Shown here piece by piece: positions 198 to 6,635 of a stretch of 64,000 bases of DNA. Origin of the DNA: Pirellula sp. (GTDB lineage: Bacteria > Planctomycetota > Planctomycetia > Pirellulales > Lacipirellulaceae); NCBI GenBank assembly GCA_013822725.1, contig PNKX01000020.1:1-64000 (forward strand), read 5' to 3'. Both the position numbers and the translations under genes were made by a program. A model generated the notes under the pieces. That model was given only the letters and a program-made list of their open reading frames with translations, made no database searches and was not told where the DNA came from. Position 1 is the first letter of the stretch. Each line of letters starts with the position of its first letter.

Positions 198-1436
198 CTA
201 CGGAGCCGAAACCGGCTTCGGTCGCGCGGCTGACTTGGCGGCTGGCGCTTCGTTCGCGGCGGGGGCTTCGAGCTCTTCTTCCAACTCTTCGGCCGCTTCG
301 GCCTCGGGGGAGTTCTGCTTCACCAGCAGATGCTCTTTCATCAACTCGGTCAGCGCGCCCTGCACTGCGTCGACCGGGAGAGCGTACGATTCAGTCCGTC
401 CAGCCCGAGCGATGTTGAAGCCGACGACGCGACCTTCGAGGTCGACCACCGGGCCGCCGCAATCGGTAGGGCGCAGCACCGTGTCGTGTTGGAAGGCGAG
501 CGGGAACCCAAAGCGGCGGACGCTCAGCTTGCCGCCGAGGTTGTTTTGGAACTCGCTGCGACCCATCGGCAGACCGGGGAAGTCGCCCGATAGCGTGGCG
601 TGAAGCGTCACTTCTTTGCCGGCGCGATCGACGAGCAGTTCGACCTCGTCACCGGGGTTAAAGGAGCCGACGATCTCACGCAGCTTCTCGCGGCTGGGAG
701 TTTTCTCACCGTTCACGCTGAGAATGAGGTCGTCCTTCTCGACGCCCGCCTCCTCAGCGGCGCTGTCCGGGAAGACTTGCACAATGAGCGCCTGCTCTTC
801 GTCGAGTTGCACGCCGAGGATGCCGGCCTGAGGGGGAATCACACGCGGGGGAACGCTCACGACGCCGACGGCAACCGGGTCCTTCGACCGCCCCACAGTG
901 GCCAGCCAAGAGCCGACCGACGGCGCTGCGCTGACGGCCTTGAGGTCGAGCGACGGGAGTTTGCCGGCGTCGACTTTCAATAAGGCGAGATCATGTTCGC
1001 CGCTCTCGGCGATCGTGGCGGCGGCAAGCTTGCGGCCATCAGGGAGAACAGCCGTGAGGTTGCCGCAGAGAGGGGTCGCCTTGGTGACAATCCACCCGTC
1101 GGGGCTAATGATGCCGCCGAGGGCAAGATGCTTGCCGTCGCACTGGATACTGACGGTGGCTTCGCTGGCATTTTTCACGACGTCGCGGAACGCGGCGCGA
1201 ACCTGCGGGCCGTCGGTTAGCCGCCAGCGCGGGACGAAAAGCCGTTCCATGCCGAACGTGTCGTCGGTCGCGGCGACGTCCTCGGCTGACTCGCGCGACT
1301 CTTCGCGGTTTCGGCGCGAGCGGGTCGGCGGCTCGTCGGCAAGCGCCGCGGCTACGGGGCTCAGGGCGAGCCAGCCAGCCGCTAGCAGCAATGCGGCGCG
1401 ACGGCCGCTGTGGGTCCGATCATGGAATAACTTCAT
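198..1436 (-). CDS. Secreted trypsin-like PDZ protein with degenerate active site
   Basis: A 412-residue protein with a Sec-type signal peptide (about residues 12-34, Ala/Leu-rich). Residues 90-200 look like the first barrel of an HtrA/S1C protease: GGIISPDGWIVTKAT replaces the usual VLT-AAH block, so the catalytic His position is Thr121. Asp149 is kept in EHDLALLKV. A PDZ domain (about 203-283, GVQLDEE...PDSAAEEAGV) comes next. Only after it does the active-site loop appear, as PTDCGGPVVD with Cys326 where Ser is expected. The PDZ is therefore inside the protease fold. Loss of His and Ser suggests a scaffold or peptide-binding pseudoprotease; a Cys nucleophile cannot be excluded. The tail after residue 370 is Glu/Ala-rich and low in complexity. 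A second S1C protease lies just upstream on the same strand, 115 bases away. Confidence 0.85.
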   Translation of the reverse strand: MKLFHDRTHSGRRAALLLAAGWLALSPVAAALADEPPTRSRRNREESRESAEDVAATDDTFGMERLFVPRWRLTDGPQVRAAFRDVVKNASEATVSIQCDGKHLALGGIISPDGWIVTKATPLCGNLTAVLPDGRKLAAATIAESGEHDLALLKVDAGKLPSLDLKAVSAAPSVGSWLATVGRSKDPVAVGVVSVPPRVIPPQAGILGVQLDEEQALIVQVFPDSAAEEAGVEKDDLILSVNGEKTPSREKLREIVGSFNPGDEVELLVDRAGKEVTLHATLSGDFPGLPMGRSEFQNNLGGKLSVRRFGFPLAFQHDTVLRPTDCGGPVVDLEGRVVGFNIARAGRTESYALPVDAVQGALTELMKEHLLVKQNSPEAEAAEELEEELEAPAANEAPAAKSAARPKPVSAP

Positions 1437-1551: not shown

Positions 1552-2592
1552 TTAATCCTCGTCACTCTCCCCTGCACCGCCTAAAACGGCCGTAATCTCC
1601 AACGACTCCCCCTCGCGGTTGACTGAAAGTTTCAGCCGATCGCCCGCTTCCTTGTGGAAGACGATCCGCTGCAGTTCGTCGAACGTGTTGATCGGGCGAC
1701 CGTCGACGGCGGTGATGACGTCTCCCTCTTTTAACCCCGCTCGCTCAGCCGGCATGCCGGGGAAAATCGCCGTAATGACGCAATTGCCGGCGTCGGCGCT
1801 TCCTTGGACGCCGAGCCGCGGCTTTGGTTCCGCGCCATCTTCGTAGTGGCCGCCCCAGACTTCGCCCTTCACCAGGCGGTCCCAGTCCTCGTTGAACGAG
1901 GTGATGGGGACGTGAAAGTTGTGGGTGACCATGGGGCCGATGCTGCTGTGGATGCCGACGACTTCGCCCTTCATATCGAACAACGGACCGCCGGAGTCGC
2001 CGCCGACAAGTTCGCAATCCGTGCAGAGCAGGCCGTCGCCGCGGAATAACACGCGGCCAAAGCGAACCGGTGGCGCACGGTCCTCGACAATGCCGCCCGG
2101 TTGGCCGATGGTGACGACCCATTGTCCGGCAGCGAGATCGGGGCCTTTGCTCACCGGCACAAACGGCAGGTCTGCCGGCGGGTCGTCGATCTGCATCATG
2201 CCGGCGTCGACGTCATGATCGGCGCCTAACGAGTGGCCGCGGAGGCGGCGGCCGTCGGGGAGTTCGACCCAGCCCTTGCGTCCCGCCTTGCCGACCACGT
2301 GGGCGGCAGTGAGGACCAGACCCTCTTTGTTGACGATTACCCCGCTGCCGGCGGCGCCGCGGATCTCGACCGCGACCGTGGCGGGCATCACGCGGTCGAT
2401 GACTTTTAGGAGCTGATCCTGGATGAGCTTCAACTCGGCGGCGTTCGCGGGAGCCTTGGCCGCAAGCACCTTGGCGGTGTCGGCTGAAGGTTCGAGCGAG
2501 ACAGGCGACGTCGTTTGGGCGGCGAGCGGGAGGGCGAAGCCGCAGCTCAGGGCGAGCGATAGCAGCGGGCGAACGAGGGGGAGTCGGTTCAT
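1552..2592 (-). CDS. Secreted S1C (HtrA/Deg-like) serine protease with PDZ domain
   Basis: A 346-residue periplasmic serine protease. The chosen ATG gives a clear signal peptide (MNRLPLVRPLLSLALS, ending near LAAQ at 26). The frame stays open 55 codons upstream, but that part has no signal peptide and looks non-coding. The catalytic triad is complete: His98 in LTAAHVV, Asp129 in DHDVDAG, Ser200 in GGDSGGP. One PDZ domain (about 240-335, PGMPAERAGLKEGDVI) follows in the usual Deg order. Such enzymes degrade or chaperone misfolded envelope proteins. The degenerate paralogue lies immediately downstream on the same strand, and the two may work as an active/inactive pair (inference). Confidence 0.9.
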   Translation of the reverse strand: MNRLPLVRPLLSLALSCGFALPLAAQTTSPVSLEPSADTAKVLAAKAPANAAELKLIQDQLLKVIDRVMPATVAVEIRGAAGSGVIVNKEGLVLTAAHVVGKAGRKGWVELPDGRRLRGHSLGADHDVDAGMMQIDDPPADLPFVPVSKGPDLAAGQWVVTIGQPGGIVEDRAPPVRFGRVLFRGDGLLCTDCELVGGDSGGPLFDMKGEVVGIHSSIGPMVTHNFHVPITSFNEDWDRLVKGEVWGGHYEDGAEPKPRLGVQGSADAGNCVITAIFPGMPAERAGLKEGDVITAVDGRPINTFDELQRIVFHKEAGDRLKLSVNREGESLEITAVLGGAGESDED

Positions 2593-2813: not shown

Positions 2814-2874
2814 GTCCGTTGGCACGGAGCACGCGGCCCGTGTCCCCTTCATCTTTCTATTGGTTGGAATCGCC

Positions 2875-3474
2875 ATGTCACTCGATCAACTCACCACTCG
2901 GCAGCGGGAAGTCTTCGACTTCATCAAAGAGAAGATCAACGGCCGCGGCTATGGCCCGACGGTGCGGGAGATTGGCGAGTACTTCGAAATCAGCTCGCCG
3001 AACGGCGTCATGTGCCATCTGAAGGCGCTGGAGAAGAAGGGGATCATCACCCGCGAACCGAATATGTCGCGTGCGATTCAGATGACCGAAATCGGCCGGG
3101 ACGAAGGCTTCCCGCTGGTCGGTCAAGTCGCGGCAGGCAACCTGACCGAAGCGATCGAACAAGCCGAACGGCTGAATCTCGACGAATTCTTCCCCGCGAA
3201 GAAGAACAGCTTCGCATTGCGCGTGAAGGGCGAGTCGATGATCGAAGCCCAGATCGCCGACGGCGACATCGTCATCTGCCGCAAGACGAAGACGGCCCAC
3301 AAGGGCGACATCGTCGTGGCGCTCACCGACGAAGGCGAGGCGACGCTGAAGTATTGGTATCCCGAAGCGAATCGCATTCGCCTGCAGCCGGCGAATTCTT
3401 CGATGAAGCCGATCTACGCCCGCGACGTCCAGGTGCTGGGGGTGGTGACGGGGGTGATTCGAAAGGTGAGCTGA
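2875..3474 (+). CDS. lexA: LexA SOS repressor/autoprotease
   Basis: A 199-residue LexA. The N-terminal winged helix-turn-helix (residues 1-68, with TTRQREVFDFIKEK and GYGPTVREIG) binds DNA. Its recognition segment SPNGVMCHLKALEKKG departs from the enterobacterial sequence, so the operator probably differs. The C-terminal S24 domain has the Ala87-Gly88 cleavage bond (QVAAGN), nucleophile Ser121 (KGESMIE) and general base Lys159 (ATLKYW). Length is normal for the family. The start MSLDQLTTRQ matches family N-termini; an in-frame ATG five codons earlier is possible. It stands alone, with inverted repeats upstream that may be its own operator. Confidence 0.95.
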   Translation: MSLDQLTTRQREVFDFIKEKINGRGYGPTVREIGEYFEISSPNGVMCHLKALEKKGIITREPNMSRAIQMTEIGRDEGFPLVGQVAAGNLTEAIEQAERLNLDEFFPAKKNSFALRVKGESMIEAQIADGDIVICRKTKTAHKGDIVVALTDEGEATLKYWYPEANRIRLQPANSSMKPIYARDVQVLGVVTGVIRKVS

Positions 3475-4014: not shown

Positions 4015-5550
4015 ATGACTCGCACCGTACGACTGAAATCCCTCGCAGCCATGGCGGCGCTTGCCGCCTCGTTGCCATTCTCATTGGAGGCCGCCCCCTT
4101 CGCCTCGCGCGTCGTGATCTCGGGCGGCACGAACGTCTCGTTCATTCTGAACGAACCGGCTGACGCGCTAGCCTATCGCTTGAATGGCGTTGGTCCGCTG
4201 CAACCGCTCAGCGGCGCCACCAAAGGAACGAAGACGTTCTCGATGAACGCGCCGACTGACACGTTCGAAATCTTCGTGAACAAGATCGACACGGTCGGCT
4301 ACACGATTCCGACCGGTGCAACGATTGCCGCAGTGTCGACCGGCCTCTCGCAAACGACGAACGAGTCGGGTTTCAAGCTGATCAGCGACGACTCGAACGC
4401 GCTCACCCGCTTCAATAGCCCGCGCGGCGTAAGCGTTAGCAACAATCCTAACGCTTCGAACTTTGGCGTCGCCTATGTTGCAAACTCGGCTGCTGGCAAC
4501 ACGACAGGCGTCGTCCGTGCCGTAGGCGACGGTCTGTACGCGATCAACTCCGACCAAAGCGACGCGTACGGATATGGCAACACGGAGAAGGACCCCGGCA
4601 ATCTGTTCGACGCCGTTTCCGCCAGCGCCAACAGCGCCTTCCGAGTCATGGTTTCGGCAACCGGCGAAGTCTATACGGCCGACTTCTCGGATGCGAATGC
4701 GAATGCCAACCGCGCGACTGCAGACTTGTCAGCCGGCGCTCGTTTACTTGCTGGCGTCGGCGGTCCTTCGGCGCTTCCGGTTGGGCAGAATCACGGCAGC
4801 ACGACCGCCGTTTACGTAGAAGGATCGGCTGCCAACGGCGACCTGGTCCTTTACACGTTGGATGAAGATCTGACGAGCGCCCAGTTCGGCGGAGTTTCGA
4901 CGACCGACAAGAACAGTCTGTGGCGTTACAACATTGGTTCCGGCGCATTGCCGTCAAACGTGACGCCGACAAAGGTCAACGCTTCCAACGTCCTGCTCAC
5001 CGCCGCCACCAGCGATCTCGATCGCGGCGCCGACGGTAAGTTCTATCTGGCACAAACGCGCTCAGCCGGCGGCGAAGCTGGTCTCGTTGTCCTCAACGCA
5101 GACGGCACGACGGCGTTTGATTCGCTGTCAGCATCTCGGACGCTATTGGGCAATCCAACTGCTGTCGACATTTTCCGCAACACGCAGGCTATTGCCGTCT
5201 CTCTCGACCAAAAGTGGCTGGCGGTCATGGTCAACAACAGCGACGTCGCCGTGGTGCCGCTGGTCGCAGGTATCCCGGATCTGGCGAATCGCTTGATCGT
5301 CAACACTGGCACCGACATCACTTCGGGCCGTGACATTGCGTTCGACGCCGCAGGCAACATCCACTACGTCAGCAGCGGGCAAGCGCTTTACCGCGTCATC
5401 TCGCCAGGCGGAGCGACCTACGCCAAGACCAGCTGGAACGGTCAGTCCTACAGCTTCAGCGTCTCCGCAGTGCCGGAGCCGTCGACGCTGGGCCTGCTTG
5501 GTTCGGCATGCATTGGGGCGATTGGCTTGGTCCGTCGTCGCCGGGCCTAG
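4015..5550 (+). CDS. PEP-CTERM sorted surface protein, propeller-like
   Basis: A 511-residue exported protein. It begins with a signal peptide (MTRTVRLKSLAAMAALAASL, cleaved around residue 27). It ends with a PEP-CTERM tripartite signal: VPEPSTLGL, a short hydrophobic helix and RRRRA. Proteins with this tail are sorted by the PEP-CTERM/exosortase system to the outer surface or matrix. The middle has Gly/Asp/Ser-rich segments such as DRGADGKFYLAQ and AFDAAGNIHYVS, which resemble beta-propeller blades, but no named domain is certain. A strong terminator follows, so it appears to be a single-gene transcript. Its ligand or role is unknown. Confidence 0.85.
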   Translation: MTRTVRLKSLAAMAALAASLPFSLEAAPFASRVVISGGTNVSFILNEPADALAYRLNGVGPLQPLSGATKGTKTFSMNAPTDTFEIFVNKIDTVGYTIPTGATIAAVSTGLSQTTNESGFKLISDDSNALTRFNSPRGVSVSNNPNASNFGVAYVANSAAGNTTGVVRAVGDGLYAINSDQSDAYGYGNTEKDPGNLFDAVSASANSAFRVMVSATGEVYTADFSDANANANRATADLSAGARLLAGVGGPSALPVGQNHGSTTAVYVEGSAANGDLVLYTLDEDLTSAQFGGVSTTDKNSLWRYNIGSGALPSNVTPTKVNASNVLLTAATSDLDRGADGKFYLAQTRSAGGEAGLVVLNADGTTAFDSLSASRTLLGNPTAVDIFRNTQAIAVSLDQKWLAVMVNNSDVAVVPLVAGIPDLANRLIVNTGTDITSGRDIAFDAAGNIHYVSSGQALYRVISPGGATYAKTSWNGQSYSFSVSAVPEPSTLGLLGSACIGAIGLVRRRRA

Positions 5551-5766: not shown

Positions 5767-6594
5767 TCAAGCCACCAAGCAATGTGTAGGTCGCCATTGA
5801 TTCTTCAGCAACAGGATGGCGGCGAACCAGACCACTAAAACGCTCGCGCTCGCGGTCGGCTCTGGGACAACGACCATTTCAGTTACAGAGAATGTCGCTT
5901 CAAGGTGCGGGGCGTATCCACTCCACTTGCCGAAATCTATCACTCCGCGACCCCTAGTCACATCGGCAAGCTTCGGCGGCAATTGTGGGCGTTGGTGGTC
6001 GAATGGCATGTTACGACCGATGACGTCGATTGTAATGCCGAAGTCTTCGTAGTTACGAAAGCCTCCGGACGGCCCTGGAAAGCCCTCGGCTTGTGATTTC
6101 ACTGCGGCTTGCTCTAACGAAGCAACGTCCGGCACATACACGTTGTACATAGGATCGTAAGGTTCGTTTGGATAGCTATCGGGCGGGCGTCCGGGATCCT
6201 CAGGATCATAGCCATCTGGGAGCTCGAAAATCCCACTTTCCTTATCCGGCACAACAGGCGGCCTACTAGTTATCGAATATGTATCATTTCCTCGCGGGAC
6301 GTCCGAGATGGCAATTACCCCGGCGTTAACGCTGGCGCTGAAACCGCTGTTCGTTCGAAGCGACAGCTGCCGAATAGACGGATACTGCTCAGAGTGTGGG
6401 TAACCATGAATCATTGGCGAGTTTGCGCTGAAAGCAACATGGCCAATAATCTCATCTCCCACTGAAAGATCAATTGGAACAGCCGATCCTACGCCGGTGA
6501 TTGTGCCGCGATACTTGATCTGAACTAGTTCGCCATGGCAGGGCGAAGCGATTGCCGACGCGAAGGCAACAAACAAGACGAGTCCAAACTTCAT
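5767..6594 (-). CDS. PEP-CTERM surface protein, unknown role
   Basis: A 275-residue exported protein. The start MKFGLVLFVAFASAIA gives a signal peptide cleaved after about residue 21; an ATG six codons upstream would only add charged residues. The C-terminus has the VPEP motif, a hydrophobic helix and a short tail (KNQWRP), i.e. a PEP-CTERM sorting signal with a weaker basic end than usual. The body has a beta-rich start (ELVQIKYRGTITGVG) and a Pro/Asp/Tyr-rich central stretch. No domain is recognised. Its wording is more AT-rich than its neighbours. It sits between a regulator-gene relic and the intact regulator, which suggests insertion at this spot. Confidence 0.75.
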   Translation of the reverse strand: MKFGLVLFVAFASAIASPCHGELVQIKYRGTITGVGSAVPIDLSVGDEIIGHVAFSANSPMIHGYPHSEQYPSIRQLSLRTNSGFSASVNAGVIAISDVPRGNDTYSITSRPPVVPDKESGIFELPDGYDPEDPGRPPDSYPNEPYDPMYNVYVPDVASLEQAAVKSQAEGFPGPSGGFRNYEDFGITIDVIGRNMPFDHQRPQLPPKLADVTRGRGVIDFGKWSGYAPHLEATFSVTEMVVVPEPTASASVLVVWFAAILLLKNQWRPTHCLVA

Positions 6595-6635
6595 GCGCCC
6601 CTCATCAAACATCGTGGATTTCGTTTAGAGTCCGG

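Follow-up and report, generated by a model that had tools for sequence, protein, structure and literature searches.

The window (the whole 64,000-nucleotide stretch of Pirellula sp. DNA that was analysed) carries at 198-1436 on the minus strand a gene for a 412-residue HtrA-like protein, called here the pseudoprotease. It consists, in order, of a signal peptide, the N-terminal half of an S1 domain, a PDZ domain, the C-terminal half of the S1 domain and an acidic, Ala-rich tail. The predicted signal peptide (residues 1–34, MKLFHDRTHSGRRAALLLAAGWLALSPVAAALAD; 1335-1436, minus strand) was read by inspection, without a signal-peptide program. The S1/trypsin-like N-terminal half (residues 78–197; 846-1205, minus strand) contains K119, T121 and D149. 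The nested PDZ domain (residues 203–283; 588-830, minus strand) has an HtrA-type ‘ILGV’ carboxylate-binding loop, and the S1 C-terminal half (residues 305–371; 324-524, minus strand) contains H317, C326, R344 and R347. Beyond residue 371 the chain is a short helix followed by a low-complexity tail, as judged from an AlphaFold2 model and Pfam. Pfam searches returned Trypsin_2 at 8.3e-12 (best stretch 108–187) and PDZ_2 at residues 207–281 at 1.2e-11, and phmmer against the PDB matched residues 98–211 and 315–367 separately to the first and second parts of a single HtrA protease domain. The PDZ domain is not C-terminal to the protease domain but lies between its two halves. The His-Asp-Ser triad is not intact: the His position is occupied by Thr121 (in ‘TKAT’; codon 1074-1076, minus strand) and the Ser position by Cys326 (in ‘TDCGGP’; codon 459-461, minus strand), and only the Asp (D149) is present. 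An earlier note on this DNA had given the same coordinates and the same calls for Thr121 and Cys326, which were borne out when the sequence was checked; a normal His elsewhere, which that note had named as grounds for refutation, was not found in the pseudoprotease. The protein has an HtrA/S1C fold that a PDZ domain divides in two, with the catalytic His and Ser replaced.

Immediately upstream and likewise on the minus strand (1552-2592) lies the gene for the partner, an S1C protease of 346 residues with an intact H98-D129-S200 triad and a C-terminal PDZ domain (residues 258–334; 1591-1821, minus strand), so that the active-type neighbour claimed in the earlier note is present. The L3 loop of the partner is shortened, around residues 183–189 (FRGDGLL; 2026-2046, minus strand). 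lexA adjoins the protease pair and is divergent from it (2593-2877 and 2860-3474, plus strand). A close LexA homologue flanks 22 of 59 wide loci, mostly within the same family, and several of the lexA upstream regions have in common a promoter-like stretch, TTGA(C)...TGTAC...CGTATATTA. Two further genes near the pair (4015-5550, plus strand, and 5767-6612, minus strand) encode proteins with C-terminal PEP-CTERM-like sorting signals, in which VPEPS or VPEPT is followed by a hydrophobic segment; the protein from 4015-5550 terminates in RRRRA.

An AlphaFold2 model of the pseudoprotease was built on an alignment of 62 relatives and had a mean pLDDT of 85.6, with the core above 95. In structural alignment, the model fitted one continuous HtrA protease domain from residue 78 to about residue 370, a stretch that includes the PDZ domain. 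The best-defined superposition was on DegS-deltaPDZ (2rce_I), with 175 of 198 residues aligned at 2.0 Å and Z = 23.6. Covariation in 112 sequences gave independent support, as its strongest pair of all (z = 12.5) couples L178, on the N-terminal side of the insert, with V330 on the C-terminal side. According to the model, the two halves form a single two-barrel S1 domain across the PDZ insert, and the barrel closes around the PDZ, the point for which the earlier note had proposed a structure prediction.

The PDZ domain sits between the strand ending in GVVSVPPR and the strand starting with QHD. Sequence alignment to DegS, counted back from the nucleophile position, placed the insertion in loop L3, with R198 corresponding to Arg178 and Q316 to Gln191. 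The earlier note, which put the PDZ after the Asp block and ahead of the Ser loop, was right as to the nesting and is refined as to the site, which is the HtrA L3 loop. In DegS, L3 relays the PDZ signal to the LD loop of the neighbouring subunit, Arg178 making the key contact, and the roles of L3 and LD' in HtrA signalling have been described (PMC11642142). Mutation of R302 of HtrA1, the equivalent of DegS Arg178, abolishes activity (PMC5666011). The number of PDZ domains at the L3 site was one in most members, none in L094 and L095, two in L184–L189 and L191, and four in L190 and L192. L190 (1244-4681) and L192 (2608-5862) are single chains of 1085–1146 residues in which an active S1 domain and several PDZ domains are joined to a pseudo-S1 domain with four PDZ domains at the L3 site. 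The limbs of L3 on either side of the insert were retained in aligned members (R307 in 96%, F311 in 100%, and R198 in 84–88% of the aligned single-PDZ members); R198 could not be aligned in multi-PDZ members. Because the flanking limbs are conserved, the insertion is more than a PDZ domain lodged in a loose loop. The deepest relatives (L198, L199, L201) have the ordinary HtrA order, with the PDZ following the pseudoprotease half.

A family sample of 124 distinct pseudoprotease units was assembled from fetched loci. The nested order occurred in 117 of these (108 with a single PDZ and 9 with 2–4), and 73 of 146 Pirellulales genomes matched the pseudoprotease at E<=1e-8, so the arrangement is not a sequencing accident. 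In a profile search full-length matches reached other classes of Planctomycetota, and homologues with the same domain order, which the earlier note had proposed to look for, are widespread in that phylum. A scan of genome contigs with the single protein as query matched only Lacipirellula limnantheis, and the only matches from a plasmid search were partial ones to the PDZ. The window comes from a Lacipirellula-like planctomycete: its pseudoprotease is 84% identical to the L. limnantheis orthologue, and dN/dS against L. limnantheis was about 0.08 for the pseudoprotease and about 0.07 for the partner; the pseudoprotease is under strong purifying selection. The catalytic His was kept in none of the 124 units and the catalytic Ser in none. 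The His position held Ser or Thr in most relatives, and otherwise Asp, Arg or Ile; the Ser position held Cys in 102 units and Met, Ile, Val, Gln, Thr, Leu or Phe in the rest. Inactivity of the pseudoprotease is strongly supported. In a tree of S1 domains, pseudoproteases and active partners fell on opposite sides of a branch with support of 97, and L198, L199 and L201 were the deepest on each side.

Cys is a possible nucleophile, and the protein could on that ground be an unconventional cysteine peptidase or a redox sensor that uses Cys326 and D149 with another base (K119 or H317). Conservation within the order is compatible with such an enzyme: K119, D149 and C326 were invariant and H317 was at least 90% conserved in 62 Pirellulales sequences (alignment A1), and K119 was present in 116 of 117 nested-PDZ members, as was D149, with H317, R344 and R347 in most. 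In the wider family, position 326 varies although the remaining signature is kept: 11 of 107 single-PDZ members that were scored have Met, Ile, Val, Thr or Leu there, 7 of the 9 multi-PDZ members have Gln, Met or Val, and the deepest branch has Phe. Moreover, the catalytic site is without any His, and H317 covaried with N341 and A352, on the S1-subsite strands, and not with C326. Given these non-nucleophiles in deeper branches, a cysteine peptidase was rejected as the main account and the reading as a whole was considered very improbable. The suggestion in the earlier note that Cys326 might be reactive is less well supported: the residue is strictly conserved within Pirellulales, but Met, Ile, Val, Thr, Leu or Gln takes its place in the deeper branches. 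Since non-nucleophiles replace it in the wider family while other signature residues stay, Cys326 is read, from these substitutions alone, as having a packing role at a disused active site and not as a nucleophile; a role specific to one lineage is not excluded.

A triad-bearing S1C partner accompanied 113 of the 124 pseudoproteases, immediately 5' in 65 and within the same polypeptide in 48. The triad was intact in essentially all partners, both aligned neighbours and fused N-terminal halves, except in very divergent or cut rows. Among the 48 fusions the partner was N-terminal in 47 and C-terminal in one (L094), and fusion was therefore seen in both orders, that of the L067 type and that of L094. 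The L094 fusion (160-1524) has a PDZ-less pseudoprotease half followed by an active S1 half. Three other loci (L193, 1005-3455; L194, 921-3431; L104, 713-3355) apparently encode three consecutive S1-like domains, with two S1 matches followed by a pseudo-S1 domain. Eleven units had no adjacent partner; four of these (L040, L046, L115, L197) lie at contig edges, and the other seven have a strong partner match elsewhere in the genome. Of 142 Pirellulales genomes, 63 had both proteins and 76 had neither; the pseudoprotease occurred without the partner in 3, and the partner without the pseudoprotease in none (Fisher p about 3e-37, uncorrected for shared ancestry). Two of the three genomes with the pseudoprotease alone are 65–70% complete, and the third has a divergent fusion. 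Pairing with an active protease is strongly supported, and the active/inactive pair that the earlier note had suggested from one locus is upheld by near-universal adjacency, by fusion in both orders and by the presence of both proteins in 63 of 66 pseudoprotease-bearing genomes. Because it almost always adjoins, or is fused to, a protease with an intact triad, the pseudoprotease is probably a built-in regulator of that protease.

These data also bear on a reading in which the protein has been repurposed for binding a ligand or metal and shares no more than ancestry and regulation with the active gene. MamO, an HtrA pseudoprotease that has come to bind metal (PMC4794232), has one such role, and the former active-site region of the present family is lined by conserved charged residues (K119, H317, R344, R347). 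There is, however, no conserved Cys/His metal cluster, and a joint function is indicated by the repeated fusion to an active protease and by the lack of any genome with the partner only. This reading was given scarcely any weight.

The L3-equivalent stretch of the partners was mostly 5–6 residues long, against 14–18 in seventeen ordinary HtrAs of Pirellulales, two of them from the source genome; in the group of the window protein (WIN, L008, L014, L073) it was read by eye as 6 residues. In two deep fusions whose pseudoprotease half has no nested PDZ (L198, L201), the active half retains an L3 of 18 residues. In L094 and L095 the pseudoprotease lacks a PDZ, yet the partner L3 is short. The nested PDZ is not strictly required, because such relatives exist. 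The coupled change of the two loops may represent just one or two evolutionary events. A substrate-delivery or scaffold subunit, whose PDZ and S1 surface bind clients and hand them over to the partner or oligomerise it, with no allosteric part for L3, would accommodate the PDZ-less members and the range of 0 to 4 PDZ domains at the insertion site, as expected of a client-binding arm. It is also in line with plant Deg7, whose inactive protease domain mediates trimerisation (PMC3473262). It leaves unexplained why the PDZ lies exactly in L3 with conserved limbs on both sides, and why the L3 of the catalytic partner is truncated, and was judged unlikely, though a good deal less so than the cysteine or metal readings.

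The favoured interpretation, held as fairly probable, is a secreted HtrA-type protease of two subunits, in which the pseudoprotease serves as the non-catalytic sensor; the action of its L3 in trans is inferred. The catalytic subunit, with its intact triad, C-terminal PDZ and truncated L3, would come from the neighbouring gene, and the pseudoprotease would contribute an S1 domain that cannot cut and whose own L3 sensor loop houses a PDZ. The two S1 domains would associate as HtrA protomers do, and the nested PDZ would then bind a peptide end exposed by the misfolding or cleavage of a protein. Since the PDZ interrupts L3, binding would shift the L3 limbs, which carry Arg198 and a conserved SxRR-GF segment, and these would push against the active partner's LD loop, turning on its active site. 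On the simplest reading of this division of labour, the dead subunit would have kept and elaborated the transmitter, and the live subunit would have kept the receiver and the scissors. A broader form is offered only tentatively and is itself rather doubtful: a phylum-wide heteromeric HtrA with a split relay, in which a catalytic subunit without its own L3 transmitter is activated in trans by a dead subunit that senses the ligand and has one to four PDZ domains in place of its L3.

Sequence evidence shows the fold with its nested PDZ, the catalytic loss, the pairing and fusion with the partner, and the shortness of the partner L3; physical contact in a complex, its stoichiometry, the PDZ ligand, the direction of signalling and trans-activation via L3 are inferred, the sequence evidence for a complex and for trans-activation being indirect. 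A short natural fusion (L079; 525–566 residues) was modelled with AlphaFold2 using an alignment of 24 fused sequences, a larger mixed alignment being left out as it misaligned the two homologous halves. The domains were well folded (pLDDT 90.7), and because pTM was 0.64 their relative placement is undefined and no interface is defined. Covariation in 112 pairs was sensible for pairs within a protein, but too noisy to interpret for pairs between proteins. A one-to-one fusion fits poorly with a simple HtrA trimer, and the stoichiometry is unexplained.

The pseudoprotease resembles HtrA/Deg proteases of family S1C (DegS, DegP, HtrA1) in its two-barrel S1 fold, PDZ domain, catalytic Asp, export and alignable L3 and LD loops, and differs from them in that its PDZ is inside the protease domain at L3 where theirs is C-terminal, in the loss of His and Ser, and in having a dedicated active partner. 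MamO is likewise an HtrA pseudoprotease without its catalytic residues encoded with an active HtrA, MamE, and is needed, non-catalytically, for MamE proteolysis (PMC4794232). By analogy, this pair may serve as a precedent for the logic of non-catalytic activation; MamO, however, acts through a C-terminal TauE-like domain, has no nested PDZ, has a separate metal-binding role and is confined to magnetotactic bacteria. Pfam gave no match to a domain of the TauE kind in the pseudoprotease after residue 371. Plant Deg7 combines active and degenerate S1 domains in one chain, as do 48 of the 124 relatives, though not the window protein itself, and also has several PDZ domains; its degenerate protease domain serves oligomerisation (PMC3473262). 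Deg7 is always fused and eukaryotic, and its PDZ domains follow the protease domains, with none nested in the degenerate one. In 117 of the 124 relatives, by contrast, the PDZ is nested in the degenerate S1 domain; it is C-terminal in the deepest fusions (L198, L199, L201). SpoIVB (family S55) is also a PA-clan PDZ-protease, and part of its PDZ reaches the protease core (PMC12502668), but the PDZ precedes the protease domain in sequence and SpoIVB is an active peptidase that has no pseudoprotease as partner. In the S41 C-terminal processing proteases (Prc, CtpA, CtpB) a PDZ inserted within the protein regulates proteolysis (PMC6686036), but these are active enzymes of an unrelated catalytic fold. 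A survey of microbial PDZ proteins noted many copies in planctomycetes, and the passages of it that were consulted do not mention the present architecture (PMC6411480). No earlier description of a nested or inserted PDZ in a serine protease, of such an HtrA pseudoprotease or of a planctomycete HtrA of this kind was found in the open-access literature, to which the search was limited; nor was a permuted family with this order, whose prior description would have refuted the earlier note. The combination of a dead HtrA that has a PDZ nested at L3 with a live HtrA whose L3 is incomplete was found neither in the papers searched nor among Pfam and NCBIfam models. The HtrA fold, the PDZ, the pseudoprotease and the active/inactive pair are thus of known kinds, and what is new, as far as was searched, is their combination.

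HtrA proteases are a textbook case of PDZ-driven allostery, in which every subunit of a homotrimer both senses and cuts. Sensing and cutting are hard to separate there, because all subunits do both. Here the two functions apparently lie on two chains, joined or apart, and the PDZ is inserted at precisely the signal-relaying loop. Provided that the two proteins act jointly, each could be mutated on its own, and the control of the next subunit by L3 would become directly testable. If true, the finding would also define a large, previously unnamed class of bacterial pseudoproteases.
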